Of a DNA stretch of 64,000 bases, positions 48,813 to 52,512 are shown one piece after another (position 1 is the first letter of the stretch; each line of letters begins with the position of its first letter). A program made the translations under genes and the position numbers. The notes beneath the pieces were generated by a model that saw only the letters and a program-made list of their open reading frames with translations, was not told the origin of the DNA and did not search any database. This stretch comes from Alphaproteobacteria bacterium (GTDB taxonomy: Bacteria > Pseudomonadota > Alphaproteobacteria > JANQMY01): assembly GCA_028289425.1 (NCBI GenBank), contig JANQPL010000004.1, forward strand, positions 372,001-436,000. Direction: 5' to 3'.

Positions 48813-49059
48813 GGGCGGCCCTTTCGCGGGGTTGATCTACGGTATCAGTCTAGTTGCGCGCCTAGAGTGTGGCCAGCGCTGATTGAACACTCCCCCGACA
48901 GACCGCAATGCCGGACGTGCATGGCTGCCCCGTCCGCACCCTTCACCGCATCGTGAAGGTGGGAAGGGCATGACAACGCCCGGCCGGCAACGGTAGGGTA
49001 CGCCTATGGCGCGGCCGCCCGCCTCCACTCAAGCCGCGCCCAAAAGAGGGAGCTTTGCC

Positions 49060-49476
49060 ATGAAACACAGCCCGCGCATTCTCGGGAGCCTGTTTGCCAT
49101 ATTGTTGGCCGGGTGCGCCGCATCCGCCGAGGGGGACGCCGCCGACGGCAACGACATCGATGCGGAGATTGCGGCCCGCCAAGGCGAGGAGGTGGACCGG
49201 GTGTGTTTCGCGCGTTCCATCAATGGCTGGCGCAGCTTGGGCCGGCGCTCCATCCTGATCGAGAAAGGGGTGAACGACTGGTACAAATTAGACCTGATCG
49301 GCACCTGTGATCCCCAATGGGCGTTCGACGCCATCGCCATCCGCACGCGGCCGGCGGGCGCATCCTGCCTAAGGCGCGGGGACCGCATCGACACCCCCGA
49401 CCGCTCGGTTTCCGGCAGTTGCGCCATTACCAAGATTTACCGGTGGAACGAGGCGGCGGACGAGAAGCGCAATTAG
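49060..49476 (+). CDS. DUF6491-like lipoprotein
   Basis: A 138-residue predicted lipoprotein. MKHSPRILGSLFAILLAGC is a signal peptide with lipobox LAGC. The mature part has VDRVCFARSINGWRSLGRRS, NDWYKLDLIGTC and GASCLRRGDRIDTP, a pattern I associate with the DUF6491 family of unknown function. The ATG at 49060 has GAGGGAG 6-7 nt upstream; the frame extends to 49006 without support. The 247-bp gap before it shows only a short CCTTCAC/GTGAAGG stem. Confidence 0.78.
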   Translation: MKHSPRILGSLFAILLAGCAASAEGDAADGNDIDAEIAARQGEEVDRVCFARSINGWRSLGRRSILIEKGVNDWYKLDLIGTCDPQWAFDAIAIRTRPAGASCLRRGDRIDTPDRSVSGSCAITKIYRWNEAADEKRN

Positions 49477-49569
49477 AGCGCACCTGACCGGCTTCGCCAC
49501 CGGCGCCTGATTTGCACCGCCAAATCCACCTGATAAAATGCCACCCCCGGTTGTTTCAGGGAGGGGGAA

Positions 49570-49989
49570 ATGCGCTGGCGCGAACTGGAAGACGTTCAAG
49601 TTCCCGTAAAGATCAAACTGTCGCTGCTGTGGGCGGCACTGATGGGCCTGTACATCTATAACGACTATTTCGTTCTGTACTTGCCCGGCACAATCGACGG
49701 CATGTCCGCTGGACAGATGGGGCCGATGGGCCCCGCGACGGATTTGGTATTGGTGGGCATGTCGATGATGCTCGCCGTTCCGGCGCTGATGATCTTTCTG
49801 TCGGCGGTGCTGCCGCCGCCGGTCAACCGGTGGCTTAATGTGGTGCTCGGTGCGGTGTACACCGTCTTACAGGCGCTCACAATGATCGGCGCGGCGCCGT
49901 TCTACCAAATTGTCGTGGTGCTCGAGATCATGATCACATTGTCCATCATTTGGATCGCCTTGCGCTGGCCCCGCCTGACCCATTTGTGA
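49570..49989 (+). CDS. DUF6326-like four-helix membrane protein
   Basis: 139 residues with four predicted membrane segments (IKLSLLWAALMGLYIYNDYF, LVLVGMSMMLAVPALMIFL, LNVVLGAVYTVLQALTMIG, IVVVLEIMITLSIIWIALRW). The start VPVKIKLSLLWA and the PxLMIFLS segment fit the DUF6326 family. The function is unknown. AGGGAGGGGG precedes the ATG. Confidence 0.75.
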   Translation: MRWRELEDVQVPVKIKLSLLWAALMGLYIYNDYFVLYLPGTIDGMSAGQMGPMGPATDLVLVGMSMMLAVPALMIFLSAVLPPPVNRWLNVVLGAVYTVLQALTMIGAAPFYQIVVVLEIMITLSIIWIALRWPRLTHL

Positions 49990-50084
49990 TGCCGGCAGGA
50001 CGAACGAAGCGTGAGGCGACGCCGGCCTTTCGTTTCTTCGAGACATCCCTTGATGTTTCCGGGTGAGGGCCTTACCTCTTACTC

Positions 50085-50360
50085 ATGTCCTCCGACTCCG
50101 ATGGTTTTCAATCGGACACCCCTGCTTATCTGCGTTTCGGCCGCCGCAAAATTCCGGTGCCCCGCACCAAGCTCATGCGCACGGTGGTGGGCACGTCGAT
50201 CGTGGTGGTGGGTGCCTTGCCGGTGCTGCCGGCTGTGGCCGCCGTGCCTGTGGGGCTGACCTTGCTGTCGATCGACTACCCCCACATTCGCCGCCACCGC
50301 CGCCGGATCACCGTGTGGGGTGGCCGCCGGATTCAGGAGTGGAGCCGCCAGCGGCGCTGA
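50085..50360 (+). CDS. Small PGPGW-like membrane protein
   Basis: 91 residues with one hydrophobic core, TSIVVVGALPVLPAVAAVPVGLTLLSID, broken here as a hairpin-like double segment (each half under 20 residues). It is flanked by very basic ends (PHIRRHRRRITVWGGRR, EWSRQRR). The layout resembles small PGPGW-type transmembrane proteins. The function is unknown. It could be the first gene of the 50-52.5 kb group or a single gene. Confidence 0.55.
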   Translation: MSSDSDGFQSDTPAYLRFGRRKIPVPRTKLMRTVVGTSIVVVGALPVLPAVAAVPVGLTLLSIDYPHIRRHRRRITVWGGRRIQEWSRQRR

Positions 50361-50412: not shown

Positions 50413-50463
50413 AGTGTTGTGTTTTGTTATAACACTGAAAAGGAGAGATTTCCCTTTTCTTAA
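50413..50463. promoter_or_regulatory. Dyads ahead of the repeat-protein pair
   Basis: AGTGTT-N12-AACACT (50413-50436) contains TTATAAC, a possible -10 region. It is followed by GAAAAGG-N9-CCTTTTC, which with the trailing T-rich stretch could terminate the upstream small gene. This is the only candidate control region before the two secreted repeat proteins. The evidence is weak. Confidence 0.3.
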
Positions 50464-50520
50464 CCAAGGCCTCCGCGTATGGGTTGGTTCAGTTTGGGAC
50501 TGTTACGACTGAGACGCGCC

Positions 50521-51402
50521 ATGAAACATCTTTGGCTTGCCGCCGCGTGCGCCGCGGCCCTGTTTGCCCCCGCCATTGCGGCTGCCGACCCTATTCCCGA
50601 TTTCCAGCTCGGCAACATCACCATCAATGCGGGCGCCGACAATAATTGGGGCTTCGATAATTCGGGGTCCAACAATGCCGGTATCGGCAATGGCAGCCTA
50701 GGCAATAAGGGCATCAATAACGGCAACAATGCCACCACCGACGGCGAGGGGCGTGCCGGCGAAAACAACAAAGGCATCAATAACGGCAACGATGCCACGG
50801 CGACGACACCCGACGGCGGCACGGCGACCGCCGGCAACGGCAACAAAGGCATCGGCAACGGTAACGGCGCGAGCGCGCAAGGACGGAACGGTGGCACAGC
50901 CGACGCCGGCAGTGATAACGCGGGCGTCGACAACGGCGCAAACACGACAGCAAATGGCCGTCGCGGTGGAACGGGCACTGCCGGCTCAGGCAATAAGGGC
51001 GTCAACAATGGAATGTCCGCAAATGCGTTTGGATCTAATTTTGGGCAATCCGCTGCCGGCAGCGGCAACAAAGGGGTTGGCAATGGTTTTGCCGCCGGAG
51101 CCCAGGAAGGCGATGCCGGCAATGATAATTTGGGGGTCGACAACGCCACCGATGTGTTCGCCGCCGCCAACAGAGTCGGAAACGGCAATAAGGGTGTGGG
51201 CAACGCGAGCGGGTCAAGTATTACCGGAGGCCCGTCCGCCGACGTGGCCAATGGCAATATCGGGGTGTTCAATGGAGCGGGGATTGATCCTGGGGAAGTC
51301 CCGGTGCCCATGCCCTTGGGCAATATGAACATTGGTGTGGGTCAGCAACTGCCGAACGGCGCGGTGGGTGTGCAGAGCTTCAGCATTCCGGCGCTGCCTT
51401 AA
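50521..51402 (+). CDS. Secreted Asn/Gly-rich 25-residue-repeat protein 1
   Basis: I do not recognise a family. It has 293 residues with a clear Sec signal (MKHLWLAAACAAALFAPAIA, cleavage before DPIPDF). A conserved block follows, FQLGNITINAGADNNWGFDN. The rest is repeats of 20-25 residues beginning AGxxNKGxxNGN: AGENNKGINNGNDATAT, AGNGNKGIGNGNGASAQ, AGSDNAGVDNGANTTAN, AGSGNKGVNNGMSANAF, AGSGNKGVGNGF. There are no Cys in the mature part and very few aromatics after the conserved block. Regular Asn/Gly spacing suggests a beta-solenoid. An adjacent paralogue starts 19 bp later. The function is unknown; a surface or matrix protein is one possibility. Confidence 0.85.
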   Translation: MKHLWLAAACAAALFAPAIAAADPIPDFQLGNITINAGADNNWGFDNSGSNNAGIGNGSLGNKGINNGNNATTDGEGRAGENNKGINNGNDATATTPDGGTATAGNGNKGIGNGNGASAQGRNGGTADAGSDNAGVDNGANTTANGRRGGTGTAGSGNKGVNNGMSANAFGSNFGQSAAGSGNKGVGNGFAAGAQEGDAGNDNLGVDNATDVFAAANRVGNGNKGVGNASGSSITGGPSADVANGNIGVFNGAGIDPGEVPVPMPLGNMNIGVGQQLPNGAVGVQSFSIPALP

Positions 51403-51420
51403 GACTAGGGGGATTATCGG

Positions 51421-52512
51421 ATGGGTCTTAAAGCAAAACTCCTCAGTACCGTGATTGTTGCGGGAATGGCGGCCCTGGCCGGCCCCGTGCAGGCGGACCC
51501 TATTCCCGACTTTCAGTTGGGCGATATCACCATCAATGCGGGCGCGGATAACAATTGGGGCTTCGATAACTCGGGCGCCAACAATGCCGGCATAGGAAAC
51601 GGCAGCCTGGGCAATAAGGGCATCAATAACGGCAATGGCGCCATTGAAGGCGGTGGCCCCGCCGGCGAAAACAACAAGGGCATCAATAACGGCAACAATG
51701 CGTCTACCACACTCATCGACAGCGGCGATCCGGTCGCCGGCTCCAACAATAAGGGCATCGGCAACGGCAACAATGCGGACGCGTTCGTTATCAACGGTGA
51801 AGCCACCGCCGGCAGCAACAATTGGGGCGTGAACAATGGTTCCACGACCGAAGCCAACACCTCGGATATTGGAGAAAGCCGCACCGGAAGCGGCAATCGC
51901 GGTATCGGCAACGGGAACTTTGCCTTTGGCAGAAGCGGAGATGCGGGCAATGACAACAAGGGCTACGGCAACGGCAACAATACGAGTGCGAACGGCTTTG
52001 ATGGTGGGACCGCGAACGCTGGCGAAAACAATAAGGGCCTCGGTAACGGCAATGATGCGACTGCCGCGGGGATAGGCGGCAACAGCGCCGCCACCGCTAG
52101 TAGCGACAATGCCGGAATCAATAATGGCAATCGCGGGATTTCGGTCGCTCTCGACATGGAAAACTCCGCGGGCTCCGGCAATAAGGGTTTTGGGAACGGC
52201 AATGACACTCTTGGCGCTTTCGGCGACGCGGGAAGCGGCAATGTGGGTGTCGACAACGCAAATGACGTAACCGCCGCCGGCAATGCTGTGGGAAACCGAA
52301 ATATAGGACTGGGCAACGCCTTCGGATCGCAGACTCGCGCTGGCCCCAGCGCGGACGCCGCCAACGGCAATATCGGCGCCTTCAATGGGGTGGGAATTGC
52401 TCCCGATGGACAGCTCCCATCGCCCGTGGGCAACATGAATGTGGGCGTAGGCCATCAATTGACCAACGGCGCCATCGGCAAGCCGCCCGTCGTCCTTCCG
52501 GCGCTGCCGTAG
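51421..52512 (+). CDS. Secreted Asn/Gly-rich 25-residue-repeat protein 2
   Basis: A paralogue of the preceding gene, 363 residues. The signal peptide MGLKAKLLSTVIVAGMAALA ends with VQA before DPIPDFQLGDITINAGADNN, nearly identical to protein 1. The repeats include AGENNKGINNGNNASTT, AGSNNKGIGNGNNADAF, TGSGNRGIGNGNFAFG, AGNDNKGYGNGNNTSAN, AGENNKGLGNGNDATAA and AGSGNKGFGNGNDTLG. Both proteins end similarly (GNMNVGVGHQLTNGAIG here). AGGGGGAT precedes the ATG. It is probably cotranscribed with protein 1. It ends 12 bp from the convergent nitroreductase gene. Confidence 0.85.
   Translation: MGLKAKLLSTVIVAGMAALAGPVQADPIPDFQLGDITINAGADNNWGFDNSGANNAGIGNGSLGNKGINNGNGAIEGGGPAGENNKGINNGNNASTTLIDSGDPVAGSNNKGIGNGNNADAFVINGEATAGSNNWGVNNGSTTEANTSDIGESRTGSGNRGIGNGNFAFGRSGDAGNDNKGYGNGNNTSANGFDGGTANAGENNKGLGNGNDATAAGIGGNSAATASSDNAGINNGNRGISVALDMENSAGSGNKGFGNGNDTLGAFGDAGSGNVGVDNANDVTAAGNAVGNRNIGLGNAFGSQTRAGPSADAANGNIGAFNGVGIAPDGQLPSPVGNMNVGVGHQLTNGAIGKPPVVLPALP

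Follow-up and report, generated by a model that had tools for sequence, protein, structure and literature searches.

The window (the whole 64,000-nucleotide stretch that was analysed) carries two adjacent genes on the + strand whose products, of 293 and 363 residues, begin with Sec signals and continue as Asn/Gly-rich repeats. A first-pass annotation had described them in these terms and had taken them for a pair of beta-solenoid surface or matrix proteins of unknown family. This raises the questions of what kind of protein they encode, whether they stand alone, and what they may do for the cell. Both open reading frames were found as annotated, but the word pair proved too narrow: the genes belong to a dispersed, previously undescribed family of about 15 secreted Asn/Gly-rich repeat proteins in this genome, and the lead genes of the family have a common element upstream.

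Anatomy of the gene pair and of the repeat

The gap between gene 1 and gene 2 is 18 nt (Table 1). As read from the sequence, both N-termini are basic over a short region and then hydrophobic, with an AxA-type site ahead of DPIPDFQLG. After the signal both proteins read DPIPDFQLG[N/D]ITINAGADNNWGFDNSG, the mature N-termini being DPIPDFQLGNITINAGADNN in protein 1 and DPIPDFQLGDITINAGADNN in protein 2. This start had been called nearly identical, and over a block of 47 residues the proteins are indeed 96% identical, with 14 silent codon differences between the genes. The block gives a dN of 0.028 against a dS of 0.80, which argues that it is under selection and, because the differences are mostly silent, that the repeats are not an artefact of composition. 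Over the entire alignment of proteins 1 and 2 (P1 and P2), dN is 0.28 and dS 1.08. An alternative start of gene 1 at 50479 is unlikely, as it falls within the conserved upstream element.

Protein 1 has 12 copies of the core [GAS]xxNxGxxN and protein 2 has 16; in 5000 residue shuffles the means were 0.8 and 1.1, respectively, and the maximum was 6. There are about 9 units in protein 1 and about 12 in protein 2, with lengths mostly of 20 and 25 residues. The annotated periodicity of 20-25 residues and the difference in repeat number between the copies were thus borne out, and the annotated count of 8-10 repeats holds for protein 1 and is slightly low for protein 2.

Table 1. Features of the gene pair and of its upstream region (positions are those of the window)
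Feature	Position	Strand	Basis or reading
GTTATAAC palindrome, -95 from gene 1	50426..50433	+	
Shared upstream element of lead genes (cCTTcTcTTAACCA ... [CA][CG]TA ... GTTTGGGA ... GACTGgGG ... ATG)	50435..50523	+	alignment of ten upstream regions
TTAACC box, -61 from start codon	50460..50465	+	
GTTTGGGA box, -29	50492..50499	+	
NG-repeat gene 1	50521..51402	+	293 aa ORF
Protein 1 Sec-type signal peptide, residues 1-22	50521..50586	+	read from sequence; MKHLWLAAACAAALFAPAIAAA
Protein 1 N-terminal cap (DPIPDFQLGNITINAG..., 3 xGxxN pentapeptides)	50587..50691	+	motif reading, dN/dS
Protein 1 repeat units, lengths 21, 25, 25, 25, 25, 20, 20, 23	50692..51243	+	
Protein 1 C-terminal region, final residues IPALP	51244..51399	+	
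AGGGGGA ribosome-binding-like site before gene 2	51407-51413	+	
NG-repeat gene 2	51421..52512	+	363 aa ORF
Protein 2 Sec-type signal peptide, residues 1-25	51421..51495	+	read from sequence; end = GPVQA
Protein 2 N-terminal cap	51496..51600	+	
Protein 2 repeat units, lengths 20, 25, 24, 25, 20, 20, 31, 24, 20, 20, 23	51601..52356	+	
Protein 2 C-terminal region, final residues LPALP	52357..52509	+	

A regular grammar was found in 18 sequences of the family. In the repeats, xGxxN pentapeptides follow one another directly in twos, rarely in threes; in the N-terminal cap there are three or five in a row. The remainder of each unit is a variable loop rich in Ala, Thr, Ser and Gly. Units are of about 19-20, 22, 25, 27 or 33 residues depending on the protein, and a chain has between about 5 and 18 of them across the family. 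Leu-Pro stands at the exact C-terminus in 14 of the 15 proteins of the source genome, in the form [LI]PxLP in 11; the exception is the protein on contig C7, which terminates in SPSPP. If any part of the chain acts as a sorting or capping signal, this LPxLP at the very C-terminus is the likeliest. At the variable core positions the likeness between repeats is about 0.25-0.45 within a protein and 0.17-0.25 between proteins; this fits a local duplication of coils. The anatomy of the chain is well supported.

A dispersed family with a common upstream element

A search of the same genome (5.4 Mb, 20 contigs) gave family matches on six contigs. The 15 genes occupy five or six places: two are in the window, five are in tandem on C20, four are at an end of C4, two at an end of C14, and C7 and C19 have one each. 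All 15 reading frames are open. The DNA pattern for GxxNxGxxNGN had 71 matches genome-wide, 70 of them inside family genes, and the reversed control pattern had one. Contig C14 breaks off within a family gene and its last ~48 bases are identical to the first bases at the end of C4; the two ends very probably form a single six-gene array inside which the assembly broke. This array was read from both contig ends, with no sequence joined. Divergent members, of the 33-residue and 22-residue types, follow one another at L009:7678-12092 with gaps of about 30 nt, in an operon-like manner.

The family has a narrow distribution. Among 59 related genomes matches were found solely in a genus-mate (G001), and among 289 genomes of the class in this genus-mate and, as one gene, in a member of another family (G184). 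Counts of the core motif over 385 class genomes were 71 in the source, 6 in G184 and 5 in the genus-mate, with at most 2 in 382 of the 384 other Alphaproteobacteria sampled. A profile of nine closer rows, run against a collection of 84,980 species, retrieved one locus, in a relative that stems from a coral skeleton (PMC9868349); this genome and G001 are taken here as one. Viral contigs and plasmids gave no family match in a search whose low-complexity filter may hide short GN-rich proteins. The G184 gene (L037:1793-2773, - strand) is a lone, very regular relative with 21-residue repeats and an LPTLP end, without the shared element, and its neighbours look phage-like by reading.

The coral-skeleton relative has one repeat gene, in a third repeat arrangement, at the syntenic site of the window. 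The neighbour order is common to both: ComM-like ATPase, DUF6491-type small protein, small membrane protein, repeat gene, nitroreductase and glutathione synthetase. In the tree P1 and P2 are sisters (98/98) and the coral gene falls in the same group. Because the relative has one gene at this site and P1 and P2 are sisters, the window pair is best read, from synteny and tree, as a tandem duplication in the source lineage; less simply, the relative may have lost a copy. The repeat gain and loss that the first-pass annotation had proposed fits the differing number and length of units, the third arrangement in the relative and the 98/98 grouping of P1 with P2. Upstream of the pair (window 49006-50360) are the genes for the DUF6491 protein and the small membrane protein, both of which the coral relative also has next to its repeat gene. 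In the window a DUF6326 gene (49570-49986), not seen in that relative, separates the two. Horizontal acquisition of the window locus was considered and rejected, its GC content being unremarkable and the locus syntenic in the relative.

When the upstream regions of lead genes from the dispersed loci are aligned, they match along some 85 nt that reach to the ATG. CCTTCTCTTAACCA comes first and is followed at a constant spacing by [CA][CG]TA; GTTTGGGA lies near -29, and the part ahead of the start codon is GACTGGGG. A TTAAC[CT] box was present at -60 to -72 in all 13 units checked; in nine of these there is a second TTAA[CT][CT] box, absent before the window pair, either 49 or 59-60 bp further upstream, two spacings that lie one helical turn apart. 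The GTTTGGGA box is found at -28 to -34 in 9 of the 13 upstream regions, and one further region has GCGTGGGA. The palindrome GTTATAAC also occurs at -101 to -106 upstream of the orthologue in the coral MAG, C20a and C20b, and GATATAAC is at -106 upstream of C14b. The element was also seen upstream of lead genes in L009, L010, L011, L012, L013, L039 and L040, so that the majority of the family's transcription units have it.

A sequence-only model of the element was trained on ten regions, eight from the source genome and two from the coral-skeleton relative. Across the whole source genome it recovered 8 of 8 of its own training sites and only two further good sites. One of these (C14:344263, E 7e-12) is the start of a gene cut by the contig end. 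The other (C20:98560, E 5e-6) precedes a secreted protein of 195 residues in which no repeats can be recognised; its signal peptide and 'DDGLLSMTGPGA' stretch resemble those of the C4 genes. This protein (L071:5974-6558, - strand, G000:C20) gave no match in a Pfam search and is probably a degenerate family member. Since neither site was used in the model, they are an independent test of the element, which is well supported. It precedes both known repeat genes of the coral-skeleton genome, although both sites were in the training set; it stands at only these two units there, possibly because that assembly is broken at the repeats. The model missed a diverged element seen by eye before C14a, and in G184 it did not find the element. 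Weak sites at C4:198405 and C19:335070 and four in the relative had no family gene on reading and were judged to be chance matches.

A conserved RNA fold in the leader was not convincing (consensus energy -1.5 kcal/mol, six pairs), a sigma-70 scan gave no promoter-like site, and no secretion gene was located behind the element. The TTAACCA boxes sit at fixed places before the lead genes, and TTAACCAT is listed among variant CtrA sites (PMC6180460); membership of the CtrA regulon would call for CtrA to bind there or at TTAA-N7-TTAA sites. It is possible that CtrA acts on the element, a lead that comes from the short resemblance of TTAACCAT. The family genes are probably switched on together as a set.

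Predicted fold and relation to known repeat systems

AlphaFold was run in two ways. The full window protein, with three full-length rows, reached a pLDDT of only 42. An in-phase repeat alignment, made from stretches of both window proteins and of the orthologue in the coral relative, with the most regular part of that orthologue as its first row, gave a pLDDT of 66.5 overall and 75-82 in the central coils, with a pTM of 0.61; pLDDT is about 80 over residues 71-130 and strands recur in every coil. The annotated beta-solenoid is supported by the in-phase model but not by that of the full protein. Foldseek found no significant match in the PDB, the best being the Lolium ice-binding protein 3ult (E 0.09). 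A second aligner ranked CsgA from Pontibacter korlensis highest (8c50, Z 10.7, rmsd 3.5, 165 aligned), level at Z 10.7 with the head of UspA1 (115 aligned), neither being significant; it gave the Lolium protein a Z of 9.8 over 105 residues. The leading structural neighbours of the model are all solenoids, and the family proteins are probable beta-solenoids on a model of moderate confidence.

The description of the family as unknown also stood: searches of Pfam, NCBIfam and PDB sequences gave no match, and no literature on NxGxxN or AGxxN secreted repeats was found. DUF6160 (PF19657) reached 15.9 bits, below its cut-off of 27, over the signal and cap region only. Among the closest known systems are curli CsgA/CsgB, which also are Sec-exported, with Asn/Gly repeats of about 20-25 residues, X-G-X-X-N turns and a variable repeat number, and which polymerise as left-handed two-sheet solenoids; CsgA is in addition the best-covered structural neighbour of the model, and in curlin conserved Asn residues form ladders at the turns (PMC10192328). 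However, the curlin kernel N-x5-Q-X-G-X-X-N (PMC10192328) is absent from the family, with 3 to 4 matches in 7137 residues (X6QX10Q once, QxGxxN four times) against 284 of the family core. The two turns are contiguous in the family and 11 residues apart in curli, and the conserved LPxLP end belongs to the family and not to curli. Curlin_rpt (PF07012) was found neither in 16 members nor in the whole genome, with a positive E. coli control, and CsgG (PF03783) is absent from the genome, with positive controls in E. coli and Caulobacter. Many alphaproteobacterial curli loci are reported without recognisable accessory genes (PMC3521004).

Secreted, expanded families with NxGxx pentapeptides are also known from mycobacteria, as PE/PPE_MPTR, from which the first-pass annotation had set the repeats apart. 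The distinction was upheld: MPTR proteins have long uninterrupted NxGxx runs, whereas here there are runs of two per unit (three or five in the caps). Pentapeptide_2 (PF01469), a profile of eight copies, scored at best 8.7 bits against a cut-off of 26.4, Pfam found no PE or PPE domain, and the signal is of Sec type while MPTR proteins use type VII secretion. The pentapeptide-repeat proteins (PRP), which include YjbI, resemble the family in their five-residue periodicity within the unit and in being extracytoplasmic in an alphaproteobacterium (PMC12864828), but of their A(D/N)LXX motif not even three are contiguous in the family, where membership needs at least 8, and Pfam gave no match. Trimeric autotransporter heads (UspA1, EibD, BoaA) share the solenoid fold (Z up to 10.7), but their YadA-type anchor was not found by Pfam. 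A single GGxGxD in 18 proteins was seen in place of the arrays of RTX beta-rolls. The Knotted Solenoid proteins of Brevundimonas were set aside, being mostly of 100-160 aa and nearest to pentapeptide-repeat proteins, with no NxGxxN reported (PMC13123833). By the tests made, the family falls outside the curli, MPTR and PRP families as far as sequence can place it.

Tandem triplets of short secreted GNxNxGAFNGN proteins were seen in two other Alphaproteobacteria (L056, 7488-9046; L057, 7901-9756). They share with the family a Sec-type signal and xGxxNGN turns, and the family profile matches the two sets with E values of 1.6e-7 and 1.2e-14. They differ in being about 120-220 aa long, in another N-terminus, in having no LPxLP end and in lying near two-component/response-regulator genes. 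These sets have the turn motif and not the ends in common with the family, and a wider class of secreted xGxxNGN proteins is conceivable.

Possible roles of the proteins

Our preferred, still tentative reading is that these are lineage-restricted, co-regulated and Sec-exported Asn-ladder solenoids that may serve as surface or matrix subunits, a function that we infer. By sequence, each chain consists of signal peptide, conserved N-cap, repeat units and a C-terminal segment whose end is usually [LI]PxLP. Each unit is probably one solenoid coil, in which the columns of conserved Asn would form ladders where the chain turns, and the small hydrophobic residues beside the central Gly would point to the core. 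After Sec export the solenoids could stack via their conserved caps and so build fibres or a coat of the extracellular matrix or cell surface. Tandem gene duplication with coil gain and loss would diversify the set, and a single regulator, possibly CtrA-like, might switch all of it on. No gene for a dedicated exporter was identified next to the clusters that were read or downstream of the element, and for a T2SS there are only remote secretins, below the GspD cut-off; with CsgG absent as well, the lack of a recognised way across the outer membrane counts against this reading. A more specific version, in which the proteins form a fibre- or coat-forming solenoid system independent of curli, lacking the curlin glutamines and having its own N-cap, an LPxLP export or docking signal and a dedicated regulon, all in an alphaproteobacterial lineage that is poorly sampled and known from coral skeleton, is unlikely in that full form.

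The solenoids might instead be surface decoys or adhesins, rods displayed singly, with variable loops that would make contact with phages or with a host (coral, sponge or alga). Many copies would then supply variants, by a logic comparable to that of PE/PPE_MPTR. The numerous paralogues with divergent loops and repeat numbers, the origin of one relative in a coral skeleton (PMC9868349) and the likeness of the model to the adhesin heads UspA1, EibD and BoaA all suit this idea, which we nevertheless consider rather doubtful, since Pfam found no membrane anchor, LysM or autotransporter domain and the common element argues for simultaneous and not one-at-a-time expression. A role as envelope-stabilising or stress proteins, which would stay in the periplasm or at the outer membrane like Caulobacter YjbI, would agree with Sec-type signals that have no recognised dedicated exporter, and an alphaproteobacterium is known to secrete a quadrilateral beta-helix that acts in the envelope (PMC12864828). 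It is quite improbable, however, given that the PRP motif is missing, that the mature chains have no conserved cysteine pairs and that 15 genes exceed a housekeeping need of the envelope.

Little speaks for ice- or mineral-binding solenoids with a flat Asn/Thr face on ice or carbonate. Foldseek ranks the Lolium ice-binding protein first and the relative inhabits a carbonate skeleton, but that match is not significant, there is no ice in a reef habitat and no periodic Thr array is present, so that such a function is very unlikely. Drift of low-complexity repeats without a selected product could explain Asn/Gly-rich, variable repeats for which no function is assigned; it is barely credible against the strong purifying selection (dN/dS), the ends kept in nearly all copies, an upstream element conserved in two species and frames that are intact throughout.

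Biofilms and contacts with hosts are shaped by secreted repeat solenoids, curli and MPTR proteins among them, and most of the work on these has dealt with a few motifs. The family reported here is an undescribed one with a very regular grammar of two pentapeptides per coil and fixed caps. It has expanded strongly in one lineage and its promoters have a recognisable element in common, so that gain and loss of coils, joint regulation and assembly can each be put to a direct test, and it offers an entry point to the surface biology of this coral-skeleton lineage.
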